The position numbers and the translations under genes were made by a program. A stretch of 57,882 nucleotides of DNA from Marinitoga hydrogenitolerans DSM 16785 (lineage in GTDB: Bacteria > Thermotogota > Thermotogae > Petrotogales > Petrotogaceae): positions 1 to 57,882 of the forward strand of contig NZ_FQUI01000010.1 in assembly GCF_900129175.1 (NCBI RefSeq), in the 5' to 3' direction. The notes under the pieces are model-generated. The model made no database searches, had not been told where the DNA came from, and saw only the letters and a list, made by a program, of their open reading frames with translations. Position 1 is the first letter of the stretch. Each line of letters opens with the position of its first letter. Shown here in pieces: positions 24,974-39,052 of this stretch.

Positions 24974-25369
24974 ATGAATAAAGAATTTTTTGAACAATTC
25001 AAAAAACTATGTGATATTGTAAAAAGAAATATTGAAAAATGCCCATGGGTAAAATCAATAACATTAAATACTATGATAAAAGAAGCCTCTTCAGAAATAA
25101 AAGAAATTGAAGAGGCTTTATTGAAGAATGATCTTGATAATTTAGAAGAAGAAATAGGTGATCTTATTTACGATGCCTTTTTAATACTAAAAATTGCTGA
25201 AAGAGATTATAAAATTTCTTCACAAAAAACTATACAACGTGTAGTTTCCAAAATCTCCAATAGAAAACCCTGGCTTTTTTGGGATAAAGAAATATCTCGA
25301 GATGAAGCTGCAAAAATATGGATAGAAAGAAAAAAACAGGAAAAGAAATTAGGTGAGAATTTTGATTAA
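24974..25369 (+). CDS. MazG-family nucleoside triphosphate pyrophosphohydrolase
   Basis: The 131-residue all-helical protein has the single-domain MazG features: CPWVKSITLNTMIKEASSEI, EEIGDLIYDAFL with metal-binding acidic residues, and a C-terminal RKPWLFWDKE. It should hydrolyse NTPs or dNTPs to the monophosphate, acting in housecleaning of abnormal nucleotides. AAGGTGAAAT precedes the ATG. Its 3' end overlaps the following phosphoesterase gene. Confidence 0.85.
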   Translation: MNKEFFEQFKKLCDIVKRNIEKCPWVKSITLNTMIKEASSEIKEIEEALLKNDLDNLEEEIGDLIYDAFLILKIAERDYKISSQKTIQRVVSKISNRKPWLFWDKEISRDEAAKIWIERKKQEKKLGENFD

Positions 25370-26540
25370 ACTGTATTTAAGTGATCTTCATATAGGTAAT
25401 GGAAATAAAAAAGATGATTTTAAATATGATAAAGAGTTAATTAAAATTTTAGAAGATTTAAATGAAGAATCAAAAAATGAATTGTATATTGTAGGTGATG
25501 GCTTTGAAATCTTACAATCATATGAAAATCCTCAAAAAAATAATGATATATATGAAATAATTAAAAATTTTGATTTTGATTCTATTTTGAAAAAAATAAA
25601 AGAAAGTCATAATGATTTAATCATGGCTTTTAGAAATTACTCAAAAAAGAATAAAATACATTATATCGTTGGAAATCATGATTATTATCTTCTTTTTGAT
25701 GAGAAAATAAAAAACAAATTTAAAAATTTTCTTGGTGAAAATGTTGAAATTCATCCTTATTATTATGATGAAAAATGGGAAATTTTTATAATACACGGAA
25801 ACCAATTTGATACACTTAATAGATTAACGGTTACTAAAACAGGCAAAATCCTTCCACCTTATGGTGAATTAATGGAAAAATTTATTTCAAAATATTTTGA
25901 TAATGAAGTCTTAAATGTTTTACCTGATGAAATTTTAATGGACTATGATAATATAGAACCAAAAATGGATATATTTTTATGGTTAGAAGAAATAAGAAAT
26001 AAATATTCTATAGGACTTGATCTTGAGTATAAATGGATAGATATGTTTGTTAATTTTGTTAGAAGTAAAGAGTCAAAAGAATGGCTAAAAGAAAATTATC
26101 CTTTTATACATATTTTATCTTATTTATTTATAAATAAGATAGGCGGTATAAAATTCGGAGAAATACTTGTTAGGACAATTAGTTCTTTGCGTGGTGCGAA
26201 AAAAACAAATTATTTAATGGAAAATGTTAAAAAAATTTTATATAAAAATAGAGTTATACCAAAAAAATATTGCATAGGCTATTCTAATGAAGATATCTTG
26301 ATTCCTTCAAAATTACAGGGGATAATAATGGGACATATACATGTTCCTACATATGAAATATTCCCAAATAATAATGGTGAAATATTTTATTGTAATTTAG
26401 GCAGTTGGAAACATACTGTCAAAAAAACTTCTGTTAAAAATAAAACCAAATTTTTAAGAAGAACTCAGATAAGTTATTTTATAGTAAAAGAAAGTAACAA
26501 AAGCTTAAACACTCAATTTGTAATAAAAGATATGATATAA
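25362..26540 (+). CDS. Calcineurin-like metallophosphoesterase
   Basis: The protein of about 392 residues has the metal-binding motifs of the superfamily: YLSDLHIGNG, GDGFE, VGNHDYY, IIHGNQFD and GHIHVPTYE. It is longer than simple phosphodiesterases, with a helical insertion of about 130 residues between the HGNQFD and GHIH motifs. I favour TTG 25362 because AGGTGAG precedes it; GTG 25353 is an in-frame alternative. It overlaps mazG by 8 bp, implying coexpression. The substrate is unknown; LpxH-like or nucleotide substrates are both conceivable. Confidence 0.85.
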   Translation: MIKLYLSDLHIGNGNKKDDFKYDKELIKILEDLNEESKNELYIVGDGFEILQSYENPQKNNDIYEIIKNFDFDSILKKIKESHNDLIMAFRNYSKKNKIHYIVGNHDYYLLFDEKIKNKFKNFLGENVEIHPYYYDEKWEIFIIHGNQFDTLNRLTVTKTGKILPPYGELMEKFISKYFDNEVLNVLPDEILMDYDNIEPKMDIFLWLEEIRNKYSIGLDLEYKWIDMFVNFVRSKESKEWLKENYPFIHILSYLFINKIGGIKFGEILVRTISSLRGAKKTNYLMENVKKILYKNRVIPKKYCIGYSNEDILIPSKLQGIIMGHIHVPTYEIFPNNNGEIFYCNLGSWKHTVKKTSVKNKTKFLRRTQISYFIVKESNKSLNTQFVIKDMI

Positions 26541-26554
26541 TTAAGGAGGATATT

Positions 26555-27538
26555 ATGAATATTGGAATTATAGGTGCTGGAAGTTGGGGAACTGCTATCT
26601 CAAAAATTCTTTTAAATAATGGTCATACTGTTAGAATATGGACAAGAGATACCAATGTATACGAATCTTTAACAAATGGGGAGAATCCTTATTATTTACC
26701 AGGAATTTCAATACCAAAAACAATAATCCCTTCTATAGATTTGAAAGATGTTGTAGTAAATTCCAAATTAATTGTTTTAGCCATCCCTACGCAAGCAGTA
26801 AGGGAAGTCGCTAAGCAAATTAAATCTTATTATCAAAATCAAATTATTGTAAACTTAGCAAAAGGGTTAGAAATAAATTCTCAAAAAAGAATTAGTGAAA
26901 TTTTAAGTGAAGTTTTGGGCAATGTTAAATATGTTATATTAAGTGGGCCAAGCCATGCAGAAGAGGTTGCGAGAGATATACCTACAAGTGTTGTTGCCGC
27001 ATCAGAAAATAAAAACTTAGCTAAAATCACTCAAGAAACTTTTAGTAATGTCTCATTTAGAGTTTATACTAATGATGATGTAATTGGTGTAGAACTAGGT
27101 GGATCAATAAAAAATGTCATTGCAATTTCAGCTGGAATTATAGATGGAATTGGTGGTTGGGACAATTCAAAAGCCGCATTGATAACAAGAGGACTTGCTG
27201 AAATAATAAGATATGGGAAGAAAAAAGGTGCAAAAAAAGAAACTTTCATGGGATTAGCTGGCCTTGGAGATCTTATTGTTACATGCAATAGTTTGCATAG
27301 TAGAAATAGATATGTTGGCGAAATGATTGGAAGAGGCAAAAAATTAAATGAAATTATAGAAAATATGAATATGGTTGCAGAAGGAATTTATACAGTTAAA
27401 GCATTATATGATGAAATAAAAGCATTAAAGGTTGAAATGCCGATTATAGAAAAAACCTATGAGGTTTTATATTTAAATAAAGATCCAAGAAAAGCTATTC
27501 ATGAATTAATGATGAGGGAATTAAAAGATGAAAATTAA
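26555..27538 (+). CDS. gpsA: Glycerol-3-phosphate dehydrogenase [NAD(P)+]
   Basis: The 327-residue protein begins with the Rossmann motif GAGSWGTA (7-14). It continues with LAKGLE, SGPSHAEEVARDIPT, ELGGSIKNVIAISAGI and GLAGLGDLIVTC, all diagnostic of GpsA. It reduces dihydroxyacetone phosphate to sn-glycerol-3-phosphate for phospholipid synthesis. AAGGAGG precedes the ATG. It is the last small gene before ppdK, 33 bp upstream, so they may be cotranscribed. Confidence 0.97.
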   Translation: MNIGIIGAGSWGTAISKILLNNGHTVRIWTRDTNVYESLTNGENPYYLPGISIPKTIIPSIDLKDVVVNSKLIVLAIPTQAVREVAKQIKSYYQNQIIVNLAKGLEINSQKRISEILSEVLGNVKYVILSGPSHAEEVARDIPTSVVAASENKNLAKITQETFSNVSFRVYTNDDVIGVELGGSIKNVIAISAGIIDGIGGWDNSKAALITRGLAEIIRYGKKKGAKKETFMGLAGLGDLIVTCNSLHSRNRYVGEMIGRGKKLNEIIENMNMVAEGIYTVKALYDEIKALKVEMPIIEKTYEVLYLNKDPRKAIHELMMRELKDEN

Positions 27539-30235: not shown

Positions 30236-30246
30236 TATAATAATCA

Positions 30247-30280
30247 AACCCCGGGAGAATATTTCTCCCGGGGTTATTTT
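30247..30280. terminator. Bidirectional intrinsic terminator
   Basis: The 13-bp stem AACCCCGGGAGAA / TTCTCCCGGGGTT (30247-30259 with 30263-30275) is unusually GC-rich for this region and is followed by a T-rich tail. It ends ppdK and also lies downstream of the minus-strand small ORFs. Confidence 0.88.
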
Positions 30281-30321
30281 ATTTAAATTTTTCACGTATT
30301 TCAAAACATGTATTCTCTTCT

Positions 30322-30505
30322 TTATTCATTAATAATTTTATTAACCTTATAAATTCTATATCCTCTATTACCTATTATTAATATATGATCATTAACATTT
30401 AATAATCTAACATTGATTTCAAATATTTCATCCAATTGTAATTCATAAAATACTTTAACTATTTTATTTGTATAAGATACATAAGCAACCTTTAGTTTTT
30501 TTCAC
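30322..30505 (-). pseudogene. Small ORF (~60 aa) frameshifted at an A7 run
   Basis: On the minus strand, AGGAGGGG precedes a GTG (30505) followed by seven A. Frame 1 from this GTG stops after 13 codons. Removing one A gives M-K-K-L-K-V-A-Y-V-S-Y and an open frame of about 60 codons to TAA at 30322. The predicted product includes VFYELQLDEIFEINVRLL and GNRGYRIYKVNK. Either the gene is broken, the sequence has an indel error, or slippage on the A-run restores the frame. It lies downstream of the ParB-BMP gene on the same strand. No family is recognised. Confidence 0.5.
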
Positions 30506-30572
30506 ACTTGCCCCTCCTCATACACATATATATCATCTTCAAAAATACTCAAATATAATATTTACAATATTT

Positions 30573-30629
30573 TTATATTTTTCTTCTACCCAGCTTTCTG
30601 TCAAAGTCGGGAGGTAATTCTAAATACAT
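30573..30629 (-). CDS. Very small ORF, 18 aa
   Basis: ATG 30629 has a strong GGAGGAAATAAA Shine-Dalgarno site and begins 19 bp after the stop of the ParB-BMP gene. It encodes MYLELPPDFDRKLGRRKI and ends at TAA 30573. The well-placed ribosome site and operon position are the main support. The function is unknown; it could also be the intact head of a decayed longer gene. Confidence 0.4.
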   Translation of the reverse strand: MYLELPPDFDRKLGRRKI

Positions 30630-30648
30630 TTTATTTCCTCCAATTTAT

Positions 30649-32568
30649 TTATACCTGTTTATCTGTACTAAAAATTACCCTTTCTAATTCTCCTTCAACA
30701 TTGTCAAGATACCAATCTATTTTCAGTAAATCTTCATCCATTATACTTTCATTTTTATCAACAATTAAGTTATTATTATGATCATATATAGGACCGCTAA
30801 AAATATCAAATTCTCTATTCTTTATTAAATGTTTCATTATTCCAACTAATTTTTCTGTTTGTCCAGGTATTAAAGATTTTGATTTGTATAGTCTAACAAT
30901 TTTTCTATCCATACCATACCAATATTTTCTCAAATCTTCTCTGTTTTTTGTTGAAGTTATGACCCATTCATCATTCAACAATTTCTTTATTATCTTTTCA
31001 TAAAATGGCCCCCAATTCCATGTAGCTGCTGCTAAATACGTTTTTGGATTTATATGATCTGTTTTTATATTATAACCAATATTGTATATATTATATTTAT
31101 CAGCTATAATTAACGGTATTAATGTATCCATATTAGAAGATAAAATATCGATCCCTTTATTTATTAATTCCAAAGTTGTTTTTTCTTCTATTTCTTTGTT
31201 TATCCATTCTTTCGTCCATTTTATAATAATCTTCGCCTTGGGATTTACCATTTTCACACCAAGGGCAAATGCATTCAAACTTCTTATAAATAATGGCAAT
31301 GGATAAGGTGCAATGTAGCCTATTTTATTACTTTTAGTCATTGTACCAGCAAGTATTCCCGATAGAAATTTGGGTTGATATATTCTCCCAAAATATACAG
31401 AAAGATTTCTATAACTCTTATATCCTGCACAATTTAAAAATTTTATGTTTGGAAATTCTATTGCCGCTTTATATGTTGAATCCATATAATCAAAACTGGT
31501 AGTTATTATTAAATCATAATTTTGTTCTACTAATTCTTTAATTACATCATACGATTTTTCTTTTTCAACATTTTCTATATAAAATGTTGTTACTTTATCT
31601 TTAAATCTTTCTTCTAAATACTTTCTTCCTATATCATGAGATTTAACCCATGTACTTTCTTCAATGCGATTTCTATATAAAAAAGCTATATTTAAATGTT
31701 TTTCTGAATGTGTTTTTATTAAAGATAGAAAAACATCATGGAATATATTCTTTCTTCCTTCAATATAAATATCTTCTAATTCTTTTATTATTAATCTAAC
31801 CTGTAATTTTAATTCTTTATCAAGAATTGATTTTTCGATTCCATATTTTTTTAAATAGTATAAAAATGCTTCTCCTGTAGTAATTGGTAGTTTCTCGCCA
31901 TTTAATTCATGGTATATCTTTCTGAAATTCCAATAAATTGATTTCTCAAAATATCTAAAAAATTCTTTTGGATTCTCTTTATTTTTTTTGATATAGTCAA
32001 ATAATATTTTTTCTAATTCTTTAAAACCGCCTTCCCTTTTAAACCAGATCATGTTTATTTTTGTTTTATCATAAAATTCTAAAAATTCATAATATATTCT
32101 TATATTTAAATCCATTTCATCATACTTTGGAACTAACCTTTTTACATTTGCCATTATTGATGGTGAATCAAGGTATTTTAAAACACTTGCACGTTTATTT
32201 CCTTCCACAACATAAAATTTATTTAAGTATTCATAAGCAATTATAGCATCTCTAATTCCCTCTTCTTGCTGTGCTTCGAATAAATTCATCCATTTTATAG
32301 CAAACTCTGTATCTTCTTCCAAAAGTGGCATAAAATTCTTTGCAAATGCACTTTTTCTTGATCTATAAAGTGTTCCTTTTACCTTTTTTATAGGAACTTC
32401 TATAATCCCCAAGGAAACTTCACTAATAATATGCTCATCTTTTAATATCTCTTCAAGTGCTGGTAAATATCCATCTTTACCTCTACTTTGCCAATATAAT
32501 AATTCCCTTTCTCCCATCTTTTTTGCATTTCTATATTCTTTTGAACTATCATATCTTATATTGTTCAT
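30649..32568 (-). CDS. Cytoplasmic fusion of ParB-like domain and BMP/PnrA-type binding domain
   Basis: The 639-residue protein has no signal peptide. Residues about 45-135 resemble a ParB/sulfiredoxin-like fold: IIEVPIKKVKGTLYRSRK and, at 116-130, NKFYVVEGNKRASVL. A helical middle (about 140-285) follows. Residues about 290-610 match BMP/PnrA-type periplasmic-binding domains (LNIAFLYRN, FLSGILAGTMTKSNKIGYIA, LNAFALGVKMVNP, the TWNWGP block). PnrA-type domains bind purine nucleosides, so this looks like an intracellular nucleoside-type sensor. GGGAGAGG precedes the ATG. It is downstream of a phosphoesterase gene and upstream of two small ORFs on the same strand. The biochemical role is unknown. 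Confidence 0.7.
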   Translation of the reverse strand: MNNIRYDSSKEYRNAKKMGERELLYWQSRGKDGYLPALEEILKDEHIISEVSLGIIEVPIKKVKGTLYRSRKSAFAKNFMPLLEEDTEFAIKWMNLFEAQQEEGIRDAIIAYEYLNKFYVVEGNKRASVLKYLDSPSIMANVKRLVPKYDEMDLNIRIYYEFLEFYDKTKINMIWFKREGGFKELEKILFDYIKKNKENPKEFFRYFEKSIYWNFRKIYHELNGEKLPITTGEAFLYYLKKYGIEKSILDKELKLQVRLIIKELEDIYIEGRKNIFHDVFLSLIKTHSEKHLNIAFLYRNRIEESTWVKSHDIGRKYLEERFKDKVTTFYIENVEKEKSYDVIKELVEQNYDLIITTSFDYMDSTYKAAIEFPNIKFLNCAGYKSYRNLSVYFGRIYQPKFLSGILAGTMTKSNKIGYIAPYPLPLFIRSLNAFALGVKMVNPKAKIIIKWTKEWINKEIEEKTTLELINKGIDILSSNMDTLIPLIIADKYNIYNIGYNIKTDHINPKTYLAAATWNWGPFYEKIIKKLLNDEWVITSTKNREDLRKYWYGMDRKIVRLYKSKSLIPGQTEKLVGIMKHLIKNREFDIFSGPIYDHNNNLIVDKNESIMDEDLLKIDWYLDNVEGELERVIFSTDKQV

Positions 32569-32588: not shown

Positions 32589-33323
32589 TTAAATATAAAT
32601 ATCTTTAAAAGGAATGATTCCTTCTTCACCTATAATTTCTAATATTTCTTTTTTCTCTTCATCATATTTCACGTACTTATAAGGAACGGTGTTAAGCAAA
32701 TAAGAAACTTTGTTTTTGTAATGAATTTTAAAATTTAGTTTTTGATCTGTATATCTCGGATGTATATGGCCATAAAACCATATTTTAGGGAAATATTTTT
32801 TATATATTAAAGCCATATTTTTTGAACCTTTATGATATGAACTAATCTCCTTTTCAAACATATTTTCTAATCCAGGTGGGGAATGTGTTATTAATATATC
32901 TATATTCTTTATAAGTTTTAATGTTTTACTCCTTTGGAGTTTTCTTTTAAATGGAATCACATCTTTTTCTGAAAAATGAAAAGGTTTTTTTCCATATGAA
33001 AAGGCTCCAGAAAAACCAACAATAAAAAGATTTGATTTTAGATTTAATACATTTTTTAAATTTTTAATATCGTTATGAATAATAGCCAAACCTTTATAAG
33101 TATTAGAATAACCGTTTAATTCCACATCAAAAATATTTTTAAAATATTTTTTATCATGATTTCCATAAATCATATAACTTATTTTTGGTTTTAATGTGTT
33201 TAATAAATAATCAAAGTATCCAGGTGATAAATCCCCACAACCTAATAAAATATCACATTTTTTTATTTTTTTTGGTATATAATTTCGTTCCTCATCAGAA
33301 ACAGCAACTATTTCAATCATCAT
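32589..33323 (-). CDS. Metallophosphoesterase
   Basis: The 244-residue calcineurin-like protein has the motif series CGDLSPGYFD, YGNHDKKYF, THSPPG and YGHIHPRYT. The usual first motif (D-x-H) is not obvious; the N-terminus reads VAVSDEERNYIPKKI, so the first metal site keeps Asp but lacks the typical His. ATG ATG at 33323/33320 follows GGAAGGAAG. It is 20 bp upstream of the ParB-BMP fusion and probably cotranscribed. The substrate is unknown. Confidence 0.82.
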   Translation of the reverse strand: MMIEIVAVSDEERNYIPKKIKKCDILLGCGDLSPGYFDYLLNTLKPKISYMIYGNHDKKYFKNIFDVELNGYSNTYKGLAIIHNDIKNLKNVLNLKSNLFIVGFSGAFSYGKKPFHFSEKDVIPFKRKLQRSKTLKLIKNIDILITHSPPGLENMFEKEISSYHKGSKNMALIYKKYFPKIWFYGHIHPRYTDQKLNFKIHYKNKVSYLLNTVPYKYVKYDEEKKEILEIIGEEGIIPFKDIYI

Positions 33324-33666: not shown

Positions 33667-34683
33667 ATGAAAAAGTTTGCATTTTTTATAGTTTTGATTA
33701 TTTCTTTAAATATTTTTGCCGGAGTATTCGGGTATGGCCAAGGCGGTGAAGTAAATGTTTATACCAGCAGACATTATGATACAGATCAAAAGTTATATGA
33801 TGAATTTACAAAACTAACTGGCATCAAAGTTAATGTGATTAAAGCGGGTGAAGACGAGTTAATAGAAAGAATGAAAAATGAAGGAAAAGATACAAATGCT
33901 GATTTATTTATTACTTCTGATGTTGGAAGATTACACAGAGCTAAAATACTTGGTTTATTGCAACCAATGGTAACTGAAACTTTAACAAGAAACATTCCAG
34001 CCTCTTTAAGAGATAGAGATAATTATTGGTATGCTTTAACTGTAAGAGCAAGGGTTTTAGCTTATGCTCCGGAAAGAGTTGATATTACAAAAATAAAAAC
34101 ATATGATGACTTAATTAATCCAGAATGGAAGGGAAAGATTCTTATACGTTCTTCTTCTAATATATATAATCAATCATTAGTTGCTTCATTTATTGCAATG
34201 TATGGTGAAGAATGGGCATTTAATTGGTCAAAAGGGATAGTTAAAAATATGGCAAGAGAACCAAAAGGAAATGATAGAGCTCAAGTTATAGCTGTAGCCT
34301 CTGGTGAAGGTGATATCGCTGTGGTAAACACTTATTATATTGGAAAAATGTTATTTTCATCAGATAAACAACAGGTAAATGCGGCAAAAAAAGTAAAATT
34401 ATATTTTCCTGAGAAAACACATATAAATGTAAGCGGTGCTGGTATTGCAAAATATTCCAAAAATAAGGAAAATGCCATTAAATTATTAGAATTTTTAACA
34501 AGCAAAGATGCTCAAAAAGAATTTGCTGAAGCTAATTATGAATACCCTGCAAATCCTGAGGTTGAACCCTCTGACTTCTTAAAATCATTTGGTGAATTCA
34601 CATCACAAGGCGTAGATTTAACTTTATTAGGAGAATATAATTCAAAAGCTGTAGAATTAATGGATAAAGCAGGATGGAAATAA
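33667..34683 (+). CDS. Ferric iron ABC transporter, substrate-binding protein
   Basis: The 338-residue secreted protein has a signal peptide (MKKFAFFIVLIISLNIFAG). The mature part begins VNVYTSRHYDTDQKLYDEF, typical of the FutA/FbpA group. The paired iron-ligand tyrosines are present (Y223-Y224 in NTYYIGKML), as is a further ligand region near YTSRHY. It binds Fe(III) in the periplasm and delivers it to the permease encoded 1 bp downstream. GAAGGAGG precedes the ATG. Confidence 0.93.
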   Translation: MKKFAFFIVLIISLNIFAGVFGYGQGGEVNVYTSRHYDTDQKLYDEFTKLTGIKVNVIKAGEDELIERMKNEGKDTNADLFITSDVGRLHRAKILGLLQPMVTETLTRNIPASLRDRDNYWYALTVRARVLAYAPERVDITKIKTYDDLINPEWKGKILIRSSSNIYNQSLVASFIAMYGEEWAFNWSKGIVKNMAREPKGNDRAQVIAVASGEGDIAVVNTYYIGKMLFSSDKQQVNAAKKVKLYFPEKTHINVSGAGIAKYSKNKENAIKLLEFLTSKDAQKEFAEANYEYPANPEVEPSDFLKSFGEFTSQGVDLTLLGEYNSKAVELMDKAGWK

Positions 34684-34684
34684 A

Positions 34685-36271
34685 ATGAAAAAAACTACCT
34701 ATATATTAATTTTACTGATTTCTATACCAATATTTATTGTTTTGTACAACCTATTTACTTCATATAATGAAAATTGGATACACATTTCTAATTATCTTTT
34801 AAAAGATTATATAATTAATTCATTAAAATTAGCTATAGGTACAGCTTTATTTTCATCTTTATTAGGAGTATTAAGTGCATGGTTTGTTAGTTATTATGAT
34901 TTTCCTCATAGAAAATTTTTTGAATGGGCGTTAATTTTACCTTTAACAATACCTCCATTTATCGGAGCATATGTTTATGCTGGAATGCTTAGTTATACTG
35001 GCACTATTCAAGTTTTTTTAATGCGATATACATCTTTTTCTGGAAAATCTTATTTGATAGATATTATGTCTATTCCAGGAGCAATTTTTATTTTTTCAAT
35101 GTTTTTATTTCCATATATATATTTAACAGTAAAATCTTTTTTTTCGAAACAAATTTCAGGAATTATTGAAGCATCTTATTCTTTAGGAAAAAACACTTTA
35201 ACAACATTTTTTAAAGTAATTCTTCCGTTGGCTAGACCCGCTATTGTTGGCGGGGGTAGCCTTGTAATAATGGAAGTTTTCAACGATTATGGTGTAGTTA
35301 AATATTATGGAATACCAACATTTAGTACTGGAATTTTTAAAGCTTGGTTTTCTTTAGGTGACATTAACACAGCAATAAAATTATCTTCCATTTTATTGAT
35401 ATTTGTTTTTGGTATTCTTTTTACAGAAAGATTATTAAGAAAACACAAAGCTTATTTCACGAAAAATAAGAACGTTATAAAAAGAAGGAAAATTAAAGGC
35501 TTTAAATTGTTTTTAATTTTATTCTTTTTAATTACATTATTTTTATTATCTTTTTTATTACCTTTATTACAATTAATACAATGGACAATTTTTTCATTTA
35601 AAAATACAAATATTAGGTTTTTCGAATTAACTTTTAACTCTATTTTTATTTCTTTAATAAGCTCTATTTTAATAATTGTTATTGCTCTTATTTTATCTGA
35701 TACTATACGATTTAGTGGAAAGAGTTCAAAATATGTTGCAAAATTGGCAACCATGGGATATTCAATACCAGGAGCAGTAATTGCTGTTGGTGTAATGGTT
35801 TTTTTTATTGGATTAGACAAAAAAATTATTCCACTATATAATTTTTTAAATTTTAAAACTAACTTAGTTTTATCATCATCTATTTTAATGCTTATATATG
35901 CTTATATTGTTAGATTTTTAAATATAGCTTATAGTCCTATTGATGCAAACTTTGAAAAAAACGGAAAAATATATCATGAATCTTCTAGAAGTTTAGGAAA
36001 AAGTTTTTTTACAACTTTTATAAAAATAGATATCCCTATGATAAAACCAGCCATTATAAGTGCGTTTATATTCTCATTTATTGAAATAATAAAAGAATTA
36101 CCTCTAACGCTCATATTAAGACCTTTTAATTTTGATACATTAGCAACAAAAGTATTCGAATATGCAAATGACGAAATGATTCACGAAGCTTCAGTGGCTT
36201 CAATAACAATAATTTTTATAATATTTATTTTTATAATAATATTAAGAAAAATAACAGGAGATGAAAAATAA
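34685..36271 (+). CDS. Ferric iron ABC transporter, permease
   Basis: The 528-residue protein has about 12 helices. It carries the duplicated permease domain of FbpB-type iron transporters, with two EAA-like coupling loops: IEASYSLGKNTLTTFFKVILPLARPA near 160 and HESSRSLGKSFFTTFIKIDIPMIKPA near 435. It forms the whole membrane channel. The gene begins immediately after the binding-protein stop and its stop overlaps the ATPase start by 1 bp, so the three genes form a tight operon. Confidence 0.93.
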   Translation: MKKTTYILILLISIPIFIVLYNLFTSYNENWIHISNYLLKDYIINSLKLAIGTALFSSLLGVLSAWFVSYYDFPHRKFFEWALILPLTIPPFIGAYVYAGMLSYTGTIQVFLMRYTSFSGKSYLIDIMSIPGAIFIFSMFLFPYIYLTVKSFFSKQISGIIEASYSLGKNTLTTFFKVILPLARPAIVGGGSLVIMEVFNDYGVVKYYGIPTFSTGIFKAWFSLGDINTAIKLSSILLIFVFGILFTERLLRKHKAYFTKNKNVIKRRKIKGFKLFLILFFLITLFLLSFLLPLLQLIQWTIFSFKNTNIRFFELTFNSIFISLISSILIIVIALILSDTIRFSGKSSKYVAKLATMGYSIPGAVIAVGVMVFFIGLDKKIIPLYNFLNFKTNLVLSSSILMLIYAYIVRFLNIAYSPIDANFEKNGKIYHESSRSLGKSFFTTFIKIDIPMIKPAIISAFIFSFIEIIKELPLTLILRPFNFDTLATKVFEYANDEMIHEASVASITIIFIIFIFIIILRKITGDEK

Positions 36272-36924
36272 TGTTTTTATATATTGAAGATATTTGGTTT
36301 AAATATGATAAAGAATTTGTTTTAAAAGGTGTTGATTTTCAAATTTCAAAAGGAGAAACTGTTGCAATTTTAGGAGAAAGTGGTAGTGGAAAAAGCACCA
36401 TACTTAGAATAATTGCTGGTTTTGAAAGACAACAAAAAGGTATTATTAGATTAGAAGATCAAATATTATCATCTAAAAATAAATTTTTATTACCAGAAAA
36501 AAGACATATTGGATTTGTTTTTCAAGACTATGCTTTATTTCCACATATGACTGTTAAACAAAATATAGAGTATGCCAAAAAAGGTAAATATAAAAATATG
36601 TTAAAATTAGTCGATTTAGAAGGATTCGAAAACAGATATCCTCATGAACTAAGTGGTGGTCAACAGCAAAGAGTTGCTCTTGCTAGAACATTGGCAGTCG
36701 AACCAAAATTACTTTTATTAGACGAACCTTTTAGCAATTTGGATGAAATGTTAAAAGATAAGATAAGAAATGATTTAAAAAATATATTGAAAAAAGCCAA
36801 AATAACAACAATTATAGTTACTCATGATAAAAATGATGCATATGCTTTAGCTAATAAGATTATTACATTAAAAGACGGAAAAGTTGAAAATATTGAAAAT
36901 ACTAAAATTAAAGTCATGATGTGA
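36271..36924 (+). CDS. Ferric iron ABC transporter, ATP-binding protein (short form)
   Basis: The 217-residue ABC ATPase has Walker A GESGSGKST (35-43), Q-loop FQDYALFPHM, signature LSGGQQQRVALAR, Walker B LLLLDEPFSNLDE and the H-loop THDKNDA. It energises iron import with the preceding two proteins. It lacks the C-terminal regulatory beta domain of about 130 residues found in typical FbpC. Its start overlaps the permease stop. Confidence 0.93.
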   Translation: MFLYIEDIWFKYDKEFVLKGVDFQISKGETVAILGESGSGKSTILRIIAGFERQQKGIIRLEDQILSSKNKFLLPEKRHIGFVFQDYALFPHMTVKQNIEYAKKGKYKNMLKLVDLEGFENRYPHELSGGQQQRVALARTLAVEPKLLLLDEPFSNLDEMLKDKIRNDLKNILKKAKITTIIVTHDKNDAYALANKIITLKDGKVENIENTKIKVMM

Positions 36925-38743: not shown

Positions 38744-39052
38744 TTATCCACCACCAAGTAATGGTAAAATTTGCAACTCCCCATCCTGTATTTTTTTATC
38801 AATCGAAATAAATTCATTATTATAAATGAATTTGATTCTCATGGTTATATAACTTGGTTGACCCATAATATTAATAAATAATTTCACAACCATATGATCT
38901 TGTTCTTTCTTTATCACTTCAAATCTGGATTTAATAGCATTCCCAATTTCAGTTAAAATATCTTCAATATTTTTCTCTTCTTCCAATTTTAGTTCTATAG
39001 TCTTTTTATCAACTATACTTCTCAAATTACTCATAAATTTTATTTTAAGCAT
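38744..39052 (-). CDS. MoaD/ThiS-like beta-grasp protein
   Basis: The 102-residue protein shows a ubiquitin-like beta-grasp pattern and ends in LPLLGGG, a C-terminal di-glycine tail as in the sulfur carriers MoaD and ThiS. One extra glycine is present. Such proteins are adenylated by an E1-like enzyme and carry thiocarboxylate for cofactor synthesis; no E1-like, moa or thi gene is adjacent. GGGGTGATTTT precedes the ATG. It lies 27 bp ahead of the phosphomutase in the same direction. The sequence is divergent, so assignment rests mainly on length, fold pattern and tail. Confidence 0.7.
   Translation of the reverse strand: MLKIKFMSNLRSIVDKKTIELKLEEEKNIEDILTEIGNAIKSRFEVIKKEQDHMVVKLFINIMGQPSYITMRIKFIYNNEFISIDKKIQDGELQILPLLGGG

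Follow-up and report, generated by a model that had tools for sequence, protein, structure and literature searches.

What does a solute-binding domain do when it stays inside the cell? This question is raised by a gene in the 57,882 bp of DNA from Marinitoga hydrogenitolerans DSM 16785 that we analyzed (the whole stretch is here referred to as the window). The gene is filed as a transporter part despite the missing export signal of its product. In this product a BMP domain is fused to a ParB-like N-terminal domain (here named N-domain), and the gene of a metallophosphoesterase (here named MPE) lies next to it. The explanation that we prefer, with slightly less than even confidence, is a cytoplasmic ligand-gated nucleotide switch which works with this dedicated phosphoesterase. 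The coordinates of all features are listed in Table 1.

Table 1. Position and basis of the fusion gene, its domains and adjacent features in the window
Feature	Position	Strand	Details and basis
ParB/Srx-fold - helical - BMP fusion gene	30649..32568	-	ATG ORF, 639 aa, no signal peptide
ParB/sulfiredoxin-fold domain, residues 47-147 (predicted)	32128..32430	-	Noc, ParB, Srx, SerK and SbnI structure matches; profile search
P-motif E122-G-N-K-R-x-S128 (GxxR)	32185..32205	-	Alignment of 61 proteins
Helical domain, residues 154-284 (predicted)	31717..32109	-	AlphaFold2 models; long terminal helix 250-284 runs into the BMP domain
BMP (type I periplasmic-binding-protein) domain, residues 290-630, AtzT/3s99 type	30679..31701	-	6pi5, E 2.4e-52; 6pii, TM 0.94
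Partner metallophosphoesterase (MPE), calcineurin-like, 244 aa, motif I D-x-E	32589..33323	-	Pfam Metallophos, E 2.1e-14
Terminator-like inverted repeat between the PPDK and fusion genes	30247..30275	both strands usable	Pattern match only

Architecture and cellular location of the fusion protein

An earlier note on this DNA had described a ParB/sulfiredoxin-like N-terminus joined to a helical middle and a BMP domain, and this architecture was confirmed by structure models, structure search and Pfam. Bmp (PF02608) was the sole Pfam family matching the fusion above the cut-off (residues 293-575, E 2.5e-43). The NCBIfam scan yielded a single match, to a BMP transporter family and below the cut-off. 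The AlphaFold2 model of the whole fusion, built from 61 aligned sequences, had a mean pLDDT of 88.9 and a pTM of 0.57 with a weak hinge at residues 272-287. For residues 1-287 (56 sequences) the values were 92.7 and 0.84, respectively, and the helical middle was likewise predicted in these models. The window genome contained one full copy of the fusion; two further matches were BMP segments with 24% identity.

The lack of a signal peptide, also claimed before, held throughout the family. When the maximum 15-residue Kyte-Doolittle mean within the first 70 residues was taken as signal test, no hydrophobic N-terminal segment was found in 72 fusion rows (duplicates included). These reached values of at most 1.85, as compared to 2.67-3.58 in 12 secreted relatives. 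Judged from the missing signal segment the fusion protein is cytoplasmic, and its annotation as part of an importer in databases is misleading.

The annotation of a Collinsella copy (WP_320677882.1) as 'BMP family ABC transporter substrate-binding protein' would make the fusion an ordinary ABC-transporter solute-binding protein with an odd N-terminus. We consider this extremely unlikely, given that a signal segment was found in none of the 72 rows and that the MPE is a constant partner. Furthermore, a BMP-type permease or ATPase is absent beside the window copy, as the earlier note had stated. The only ABC genes nearby (33667-36924) are unrelated and match the BPD_transp_1 and SBP_bac families. 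They form a complete SBP_bac_6-type solute-binding/permease/ATPase system which is divergent from the MPE gene and presumably represents an iron(III)-type importer.

PBP-fold domains outside transport are also represented in the fold search by LacI/PurR regulators and by the comK activator 2hqb.

The N-domain and the binding pocket

The top structural match of the modelled N-domain (residues ~50-147) was Noc (7ol9_A, Z 8.3, rmsd 2.7, 79 residues), and Srx 6ky4 was aligned with a Z score of 8.1 (rmsd 2.7, 81 residues). The best 32 structural rows consisted solely of ParB/Noc/KorB/PadC/SbnI/SerK/Srx-type or uncharacterised chains. Foldseek retrieved Noc (E 1.6e-4) and Srx (E 1e-3) with the same model, and a sequence profile of 15 N-domains found ParB 6sdk (E 3.6e-4) and Srx 6ky4 (E 8.7e-4). 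The stretch V-E-G-N-K-R-x-S-V-L, on which the ParB-like assignment had been based, corresponds to residues 121-130 and includes the GxxR P-motif; E122, G123, K125, R126 and S128 were invariant across 61 aligned proteins. The presence of the fold had been named beforehand as the point on which this assignment should be judged, and it was found in the models, with Foldseek, by structural alignment and by the profile. Even though a Z score of about 8 can reflect a common arrangement, we regard the predicted divergent ParB/Srx fold at residues ~47-147 as secure, because sequence, motif and the near-uniform list of matches agree.

Pfam ParB_N (PF02195) matched weakly in 3 of 56 family members (best E 0.008), and the fusion family therefore lies below standard annotation. 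Since it is below PF02195 detection, it is probably also outside of a PF02195-based survey of ParB-fold proteins (PMC12704722), the available main text of which contains no BMP, substrate-binding, phosphoesterase, ferredoxin or iron-sulfur term. The same text names CTP, ATP or GTP as the nucleotides bound by ParB-fold proteins, describes fusions to further domains as frequent, and treats canonical ParB as a DNA clamp gated by CTP.

One alternative is that a ligand gates the fusion as a DNA clamp or transcription regulator, in analogy to LacI/PurR but with a ParB-type DNA-loading domain in place of the HTH. The structural matches include canonical ParB, Noc and KorB, which share, like Srx, the fold of residues 47-147 and the GxxR P-motif with the fusion. 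The cytoplasmic PBP-fold sensors of the LacI/PurR type were represented by 1pnr in the BMP fold search. However, no HTH or other DNA-binding family was recognised in the Pfam scan of the fusion, and its output, unlike that of LacI/PurR, is not recognisably an HTH. The HTH and the C-terminal dimerisation domain of ParB were found neither in Pfam nor in the structural rows, although such lists do not prove absence, and an HTH or another output domain overlooked by Foldseek may exist. In these rows the helical part showed no alignment to the DNA-binding domain of ParB. The structural rows that the helical part did produce were dismissed as relatives, being generic helical bundles. A ParA neighbour is lacking within the window, and a DNA clamp leaves the phosphoesterase unexplained. 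We therefore regard this reading as very unlikely. The DNA-acting output of the earlier note finds no support in the Pfam and structural results, and a nucleotide-related output is our best guess.

The closest solved sequences to the BMP half were AtzT (6pi5) and 3s99 (E 3.2e-50), whereas PnrA/Bmp nucleoside binders ranked far behind, and a PnrA-type nucleoside assignment, as proposed earlier, was not upheld. Foldseek placed the BMP half on AtzT 6pii with a TM of 0.94 by target length, an rmsd of 2.0 and 30% identity, and in this model the BMP fold is intact. Both AtzT and the Brucella BMP protein 3s99 (PF02608) have the fold in common with the fusion, in which their stacking and polar pocket is largely retained. 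They are exported, whereas the fusion is cytoplasmic and joined to a ParB fold and the window protein carries a Leu in place of AtzT Glu165.

AtzT binds guanine with a KD of ~110 nM via Tyr45, Ser97, the Phe98 backbone, Glu165, Trp194, Asn218 and Asn220, according to PMC6834077. The window protein has W307, S358, F359, L426, W455, N479 and D481 at these positions, respectively. Loss of the contacting residues had been put forward as evidence against a purine sensor; here the residues of the stacking and polar frame are retained, but L426 takes the place of the base-reading Glu165.

To survey the pocket, 63 fusions (20 from Thermotogota and 43 others) were compared. A Trp at AtzT position 45 was common to all 63. 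Position 97 was Ser in 20/20 Thermotogota and 31/43 other fusions, and position 194 was Trp in 18/20 and 15/43, respectively. Glu was found at position 165 in 12/20 Thermotogota (Glu or Asp in 22/43 others) and Asp at position 220 in 20/20 (Asp or Asn in 39/43 others). The 12 secreted relatives retained W, S, F, E, W and D at the pocket positions with position 218 being variable, while the residues diverge further in many Clostridia fusions. From the pocket residues a purine-like ligand of the BMP domain is plausible, and the ligand may have changed in Marinitoga. Thus, of the intracellular purine-nucleoside-type sensor suggested before, the intracellular sensor is supported and the purine part is retained at this strength, whereas the PnrA nucleoside type is not.

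In a tree of BMP halves the 63 fused domains grouped in a single clade with a support of 0.905 and the 14 unfused domains fell outside of it, which fits one fusion event.

Distribution and linkage with the phosphoesterase

Full-length relatives of 616-679 aa were present in Thermotogota, Bacillota and Collinsella; named carriers are Anaerostipes, Agathobacter, Ruminococcaceae bacterium, Subdoligranulum and Collinsella. Among 103 Thermotogota-class genomes 21 carried the full-length fusion, and these are all the genomes listed in the family of the window. The remainder matched in the BMP half only (81 genomes) or not at all (one genome). In the Clostridia class (391 genomes) the N-domain was matched in 40 genomes at E 1e-3 and in 39 at 1e-67 or better. 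One of the 21 carriers, Marinitoga lauensis (G040, locus L013), has a fusion gene split by frameshifts or stops, due to assembly error or decay, next to an intact MPE gene; the relative L004, also from Marinitoga lauensis, stands at 71%.

A role in phage or mobile defence was rejected. No relatives were found in the viral-contig scan, and of 50,697 phage records three matched (Bacillus phage G twice and one unverified faecal scaffold). Among defence models the MPE matched the generic phosphoesterase candidate PDC-S10 (E 2.3e-13), the other matches being weak ParB-motif ones. The Bacillus phage G locus (L156, 2968-4409) encodes gp57 with a ParB-like domain (E 8e-6) followed by gp58, a dUTPase_2-family gene.

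The phosphoesterase neighbour reported in the earlier note is located on the same strand as the fusion gene at a distance of 20 nt; its constancy as a partner is new. With the window MPE as query, 21 of the 103 Thermotogota-class genomes were matched, which were exactly the fusion carriers with one copy each. For Clostridia, a profile of 8 MPEs was searched against the 391 genomes. It matched 41 of them with E values no higher than 1.8e-50, whereas the match ranked after these had 2.6e-18. These comprised 38 of the 39 fusion genomes versus 3 of the 352 others (Fisher p 4e-48, with independence overstated since the genomes are related). G205 was the sole fusion-bearing genome of this class without an MPE match, and its fusion is cut at a contig end. 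An MPE without detected fusion was present in G342, G318 and G184. At the locus of G318 (L152, 4594-5819) a DUF402 gene and the MPE gene remain and the fusion, which separates the two in other genomes, is absent from between them.

Adjacency was defined as a distance within 600 bp, and L040 and the repeat stretches L117-L124 were dropped before counting. The MPE adjoined a fusion-family gene in 76 of the resulting 84 loci. Among the exceptions, L007 and L095 have a fusion truncated at the end of the contig, and L111 and L112 are second fusion copies. The others were L104, the MPE of which is found on a different contig, L115 (a weak 375 aa match) as well as L148 and L149 (125 aa). In the genome of L104, where the MPE is located on contig G276:C107, a thioredoxin-reductase-like gene follows the fusion.

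The order of the two genes was less conserved. Within 74 loci the MPE gene was located upstream (36), downstream on the same strand (18) or downstream in convergent, tail-to-tail orientation (20), and 4-nt overlaps were found in many of them. If synteny had simply been inherited, a single order would be expected; the repeated re-pairing suggests that fusion and MPE are functionally linked. This near-perfect and order-independent linkage provides a testable partner and a substrate search. On the other hand, the three genomes with an MPE and no fusion, the second copies L111 and L112 without adjacent MPE, the Leu in place of Glu165 in the window protein and the further divergence of the pocket in many Clostridia speak against our best explanation. 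Mirror-tree distances were uninformative and did not single out the N-domain/MPE link (partial r -0.21 for N-domain/MPE given BMP and 0.55 for BMP/MPE given N-domain).

The MPE belongs to the same fold family as the calcineurin-like metallophosphoesterases of the YfcE and MPPED2 type and shares their motifs GD, GNHD, H and GHxH; the nearest solved chain reached only E 0.02. It differs from them by its ParB-fold partner and by motif I, which is D-x-E in 65/74 MPEs and in none of the 74 D-x-H, the usual form in calcineurin-like metallophosphoesterases. The metal-ligand positions D10, GD30-31, GNH54-56, H147, GH185-186 and H188 were kept in all 74, so that the MPE, as read from these positions, should be active.

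A DUF402 gene, whose family includes the nucleotide phosphatases NtdP and FomD, was located directly upstream of the fusion in 9/78 loci. This would fit an enzyme complex for nucleotide salvage or repair, with the BMP domain supplying a captured purine to the catalytic partner and the MPE acting as nucleotide hydrolase. However, DUF402 is limited to these few loci and no salvage gene was recurrent among the clustered neighbours examined. To our knowledge BMP domains are binding domains and not catalysts, which argues against a salvage enzyme as well. Such a complex is in our view quite unlikely.

A general link to sugar or alpha-glucan metabolism was rejected too. Marker genes (sugar-permease, GH13, GH36, glycogen-phosphorylase) were present in 5/71 pair loci, including the repeat stretches L117 and L121, versus 2/20 controls. 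In L006, L039 and L157, which represent three phyla, the fusion/MPE pair lies within sugar-ABC/alpha-glucan clusters.

Exchangeable tails and the proposed module

The N-domain profile was searched through 398 genomes of the phylum of G103, of which 25 matched. Five of the matches were BMP-type, 13 carried a cysteine-containing tail (308-361 aa), three were short forms and four were weak. The MPE was located directly upstream in 13/13 cysteine-tail relatives. Eight of these contained 9-10 cysteines and five contained 4. Three of the 13 were scanned, with Fer4-type matches in L144 (E 2.5e-13) and L138 (E 1.2e-5) and none in L136. The helical part of L144 and L138 matched DUF4032 (PF13224), for which the Pfam scan of the window protein gave no match and a literature search returned no paper. 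Profile-profile comparison of 12 cysteine-tail N-domains with 56 BMP-type N-domains resulted in E 1.8e-18 over 205 columns.

Further variants were found in Cetobacterium, where the N-domain carries an unrecognised C-terminus unlike BMP and the MPE lies upstream, and in Tsukamurella, where the gene of a 288 aa 'ParB' overlaps that of an MPE with 36% identity to the Anaerostipes MPE. The same N-domain is thus combined with other tails beside the MPE, so that ParB-fold protein and MPE form the core of the module and the sensor half is exchangeable. A stand-alone ParB-like domain of 125 aa with no MPE nearby was present in L148 (4351-4728) and L149 (4433-4810).

One cysteine-tail relative brings in a further alternative. 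L136 matched NCBIfam SerK with E 1.9e-6 over residues 71-219, that is the ParB fold and the helical part. SerK, described in PMC5120207 as an ADP-dependent free-serine kinase once annotated as ParB, and SbnI have both parts in common with the fusion and appeared among the structural matches of the N-domain (Z 6.6 and 6.4, respectively). ParB/Srx fold and helical part would then be a small-molecule kinase of this type under the control of the BMP or Fe-S sensor, and its phosphorylation would be reversed by the MPE. However, the L136 match scored 27.2 bits, far below the NCBIfam cut-off of 380, and no SerK match was listed for the window protein in NCBIfam. For E30 of SerK, mutated in PDB entries according to their titles, no conserved acidic equivalent stands out in the alignment of the fusions, the segment having been compared without residue-level alignment. 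In addition, the fusion differs from SerK and SbnI by its sensor domain and the constant MPE. A kinase/phosphatase pair therefore appears unlikely to us.

Beyond the domain architecture, the MPE linkage and the tail exchange, which are shown by the results above, we infer the following mechanism for the nucleotide switch that we prefer, with the AtzT-type BMP domain as putative sensor half and the divergent ParB/Srx fold plus helical domain as putative output half. A purine-like metabolite would close the BMP domain, and the movement could travel via helix 250-284 to the ParB-fold domain. As a result, this domain would bind or turn over a nucleoside triphosphate differently. One of the nucleotide states might allow the fusion to contact the MPE directly and thereby to start or stop the hydrolysis of an intracellular phosphoester by this enzyme. 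Elsewhere among bacteria a cysteine-containing, partly ferredoxin-like tail or the Cetobacterium domain replaces the sensor half while output half and MPE stay, and one output would serve different inputs.

Literature searches returned no description of the fusion or of the fusion/MPE pair. We tentatively propose, with a probability slightly below even, an undescribed and widespread signalling or enzyme module of at least four phyla (Thermotogota, Bacillota, Actinomycetota and Fusobacteriota). In this module a nucleotide-binding protein of the ParB/Srx fold, fitted with interchangeable sensor tails (purine-binding BMP, cysteine-rich/Fe-S and others), and an obligate D-x-E MPE would jointly act on a nucleotide or phosphometabolite. 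If true, this takes the ParB-CTPase fold beyond DNA segregation, to the control of a phosphoesterase gated by a metabolite, and shows a solute-binding domain that has moved into the cell as a sensor.

With regard to the neighbourhood in the window, the two unrecognised small ORFs which the earlier note had placed in the operon were not recovered, the longest minus-strand ORF wholly within 30236-30648 being 37 aa. This gap of ~410 bp between the PPDK and fusion genes contains no substantial ORF, measures ~85 bp in the relative L008 and may carry a decayed stretch. A second, longer metallophosphoesterase of 395 aa (25353-26540) is outside of the partner MPE family; it is preceded by a small ORF (24974-25369) and followed by a dehydrogenase-like gene (26555-27538). 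Finally, a MoaD/ThiS-like small protein (NCBIfam moaD_arch, below the cut-off) is encoded at 38744-39052 beside a phosphoglucomutase-like gene.
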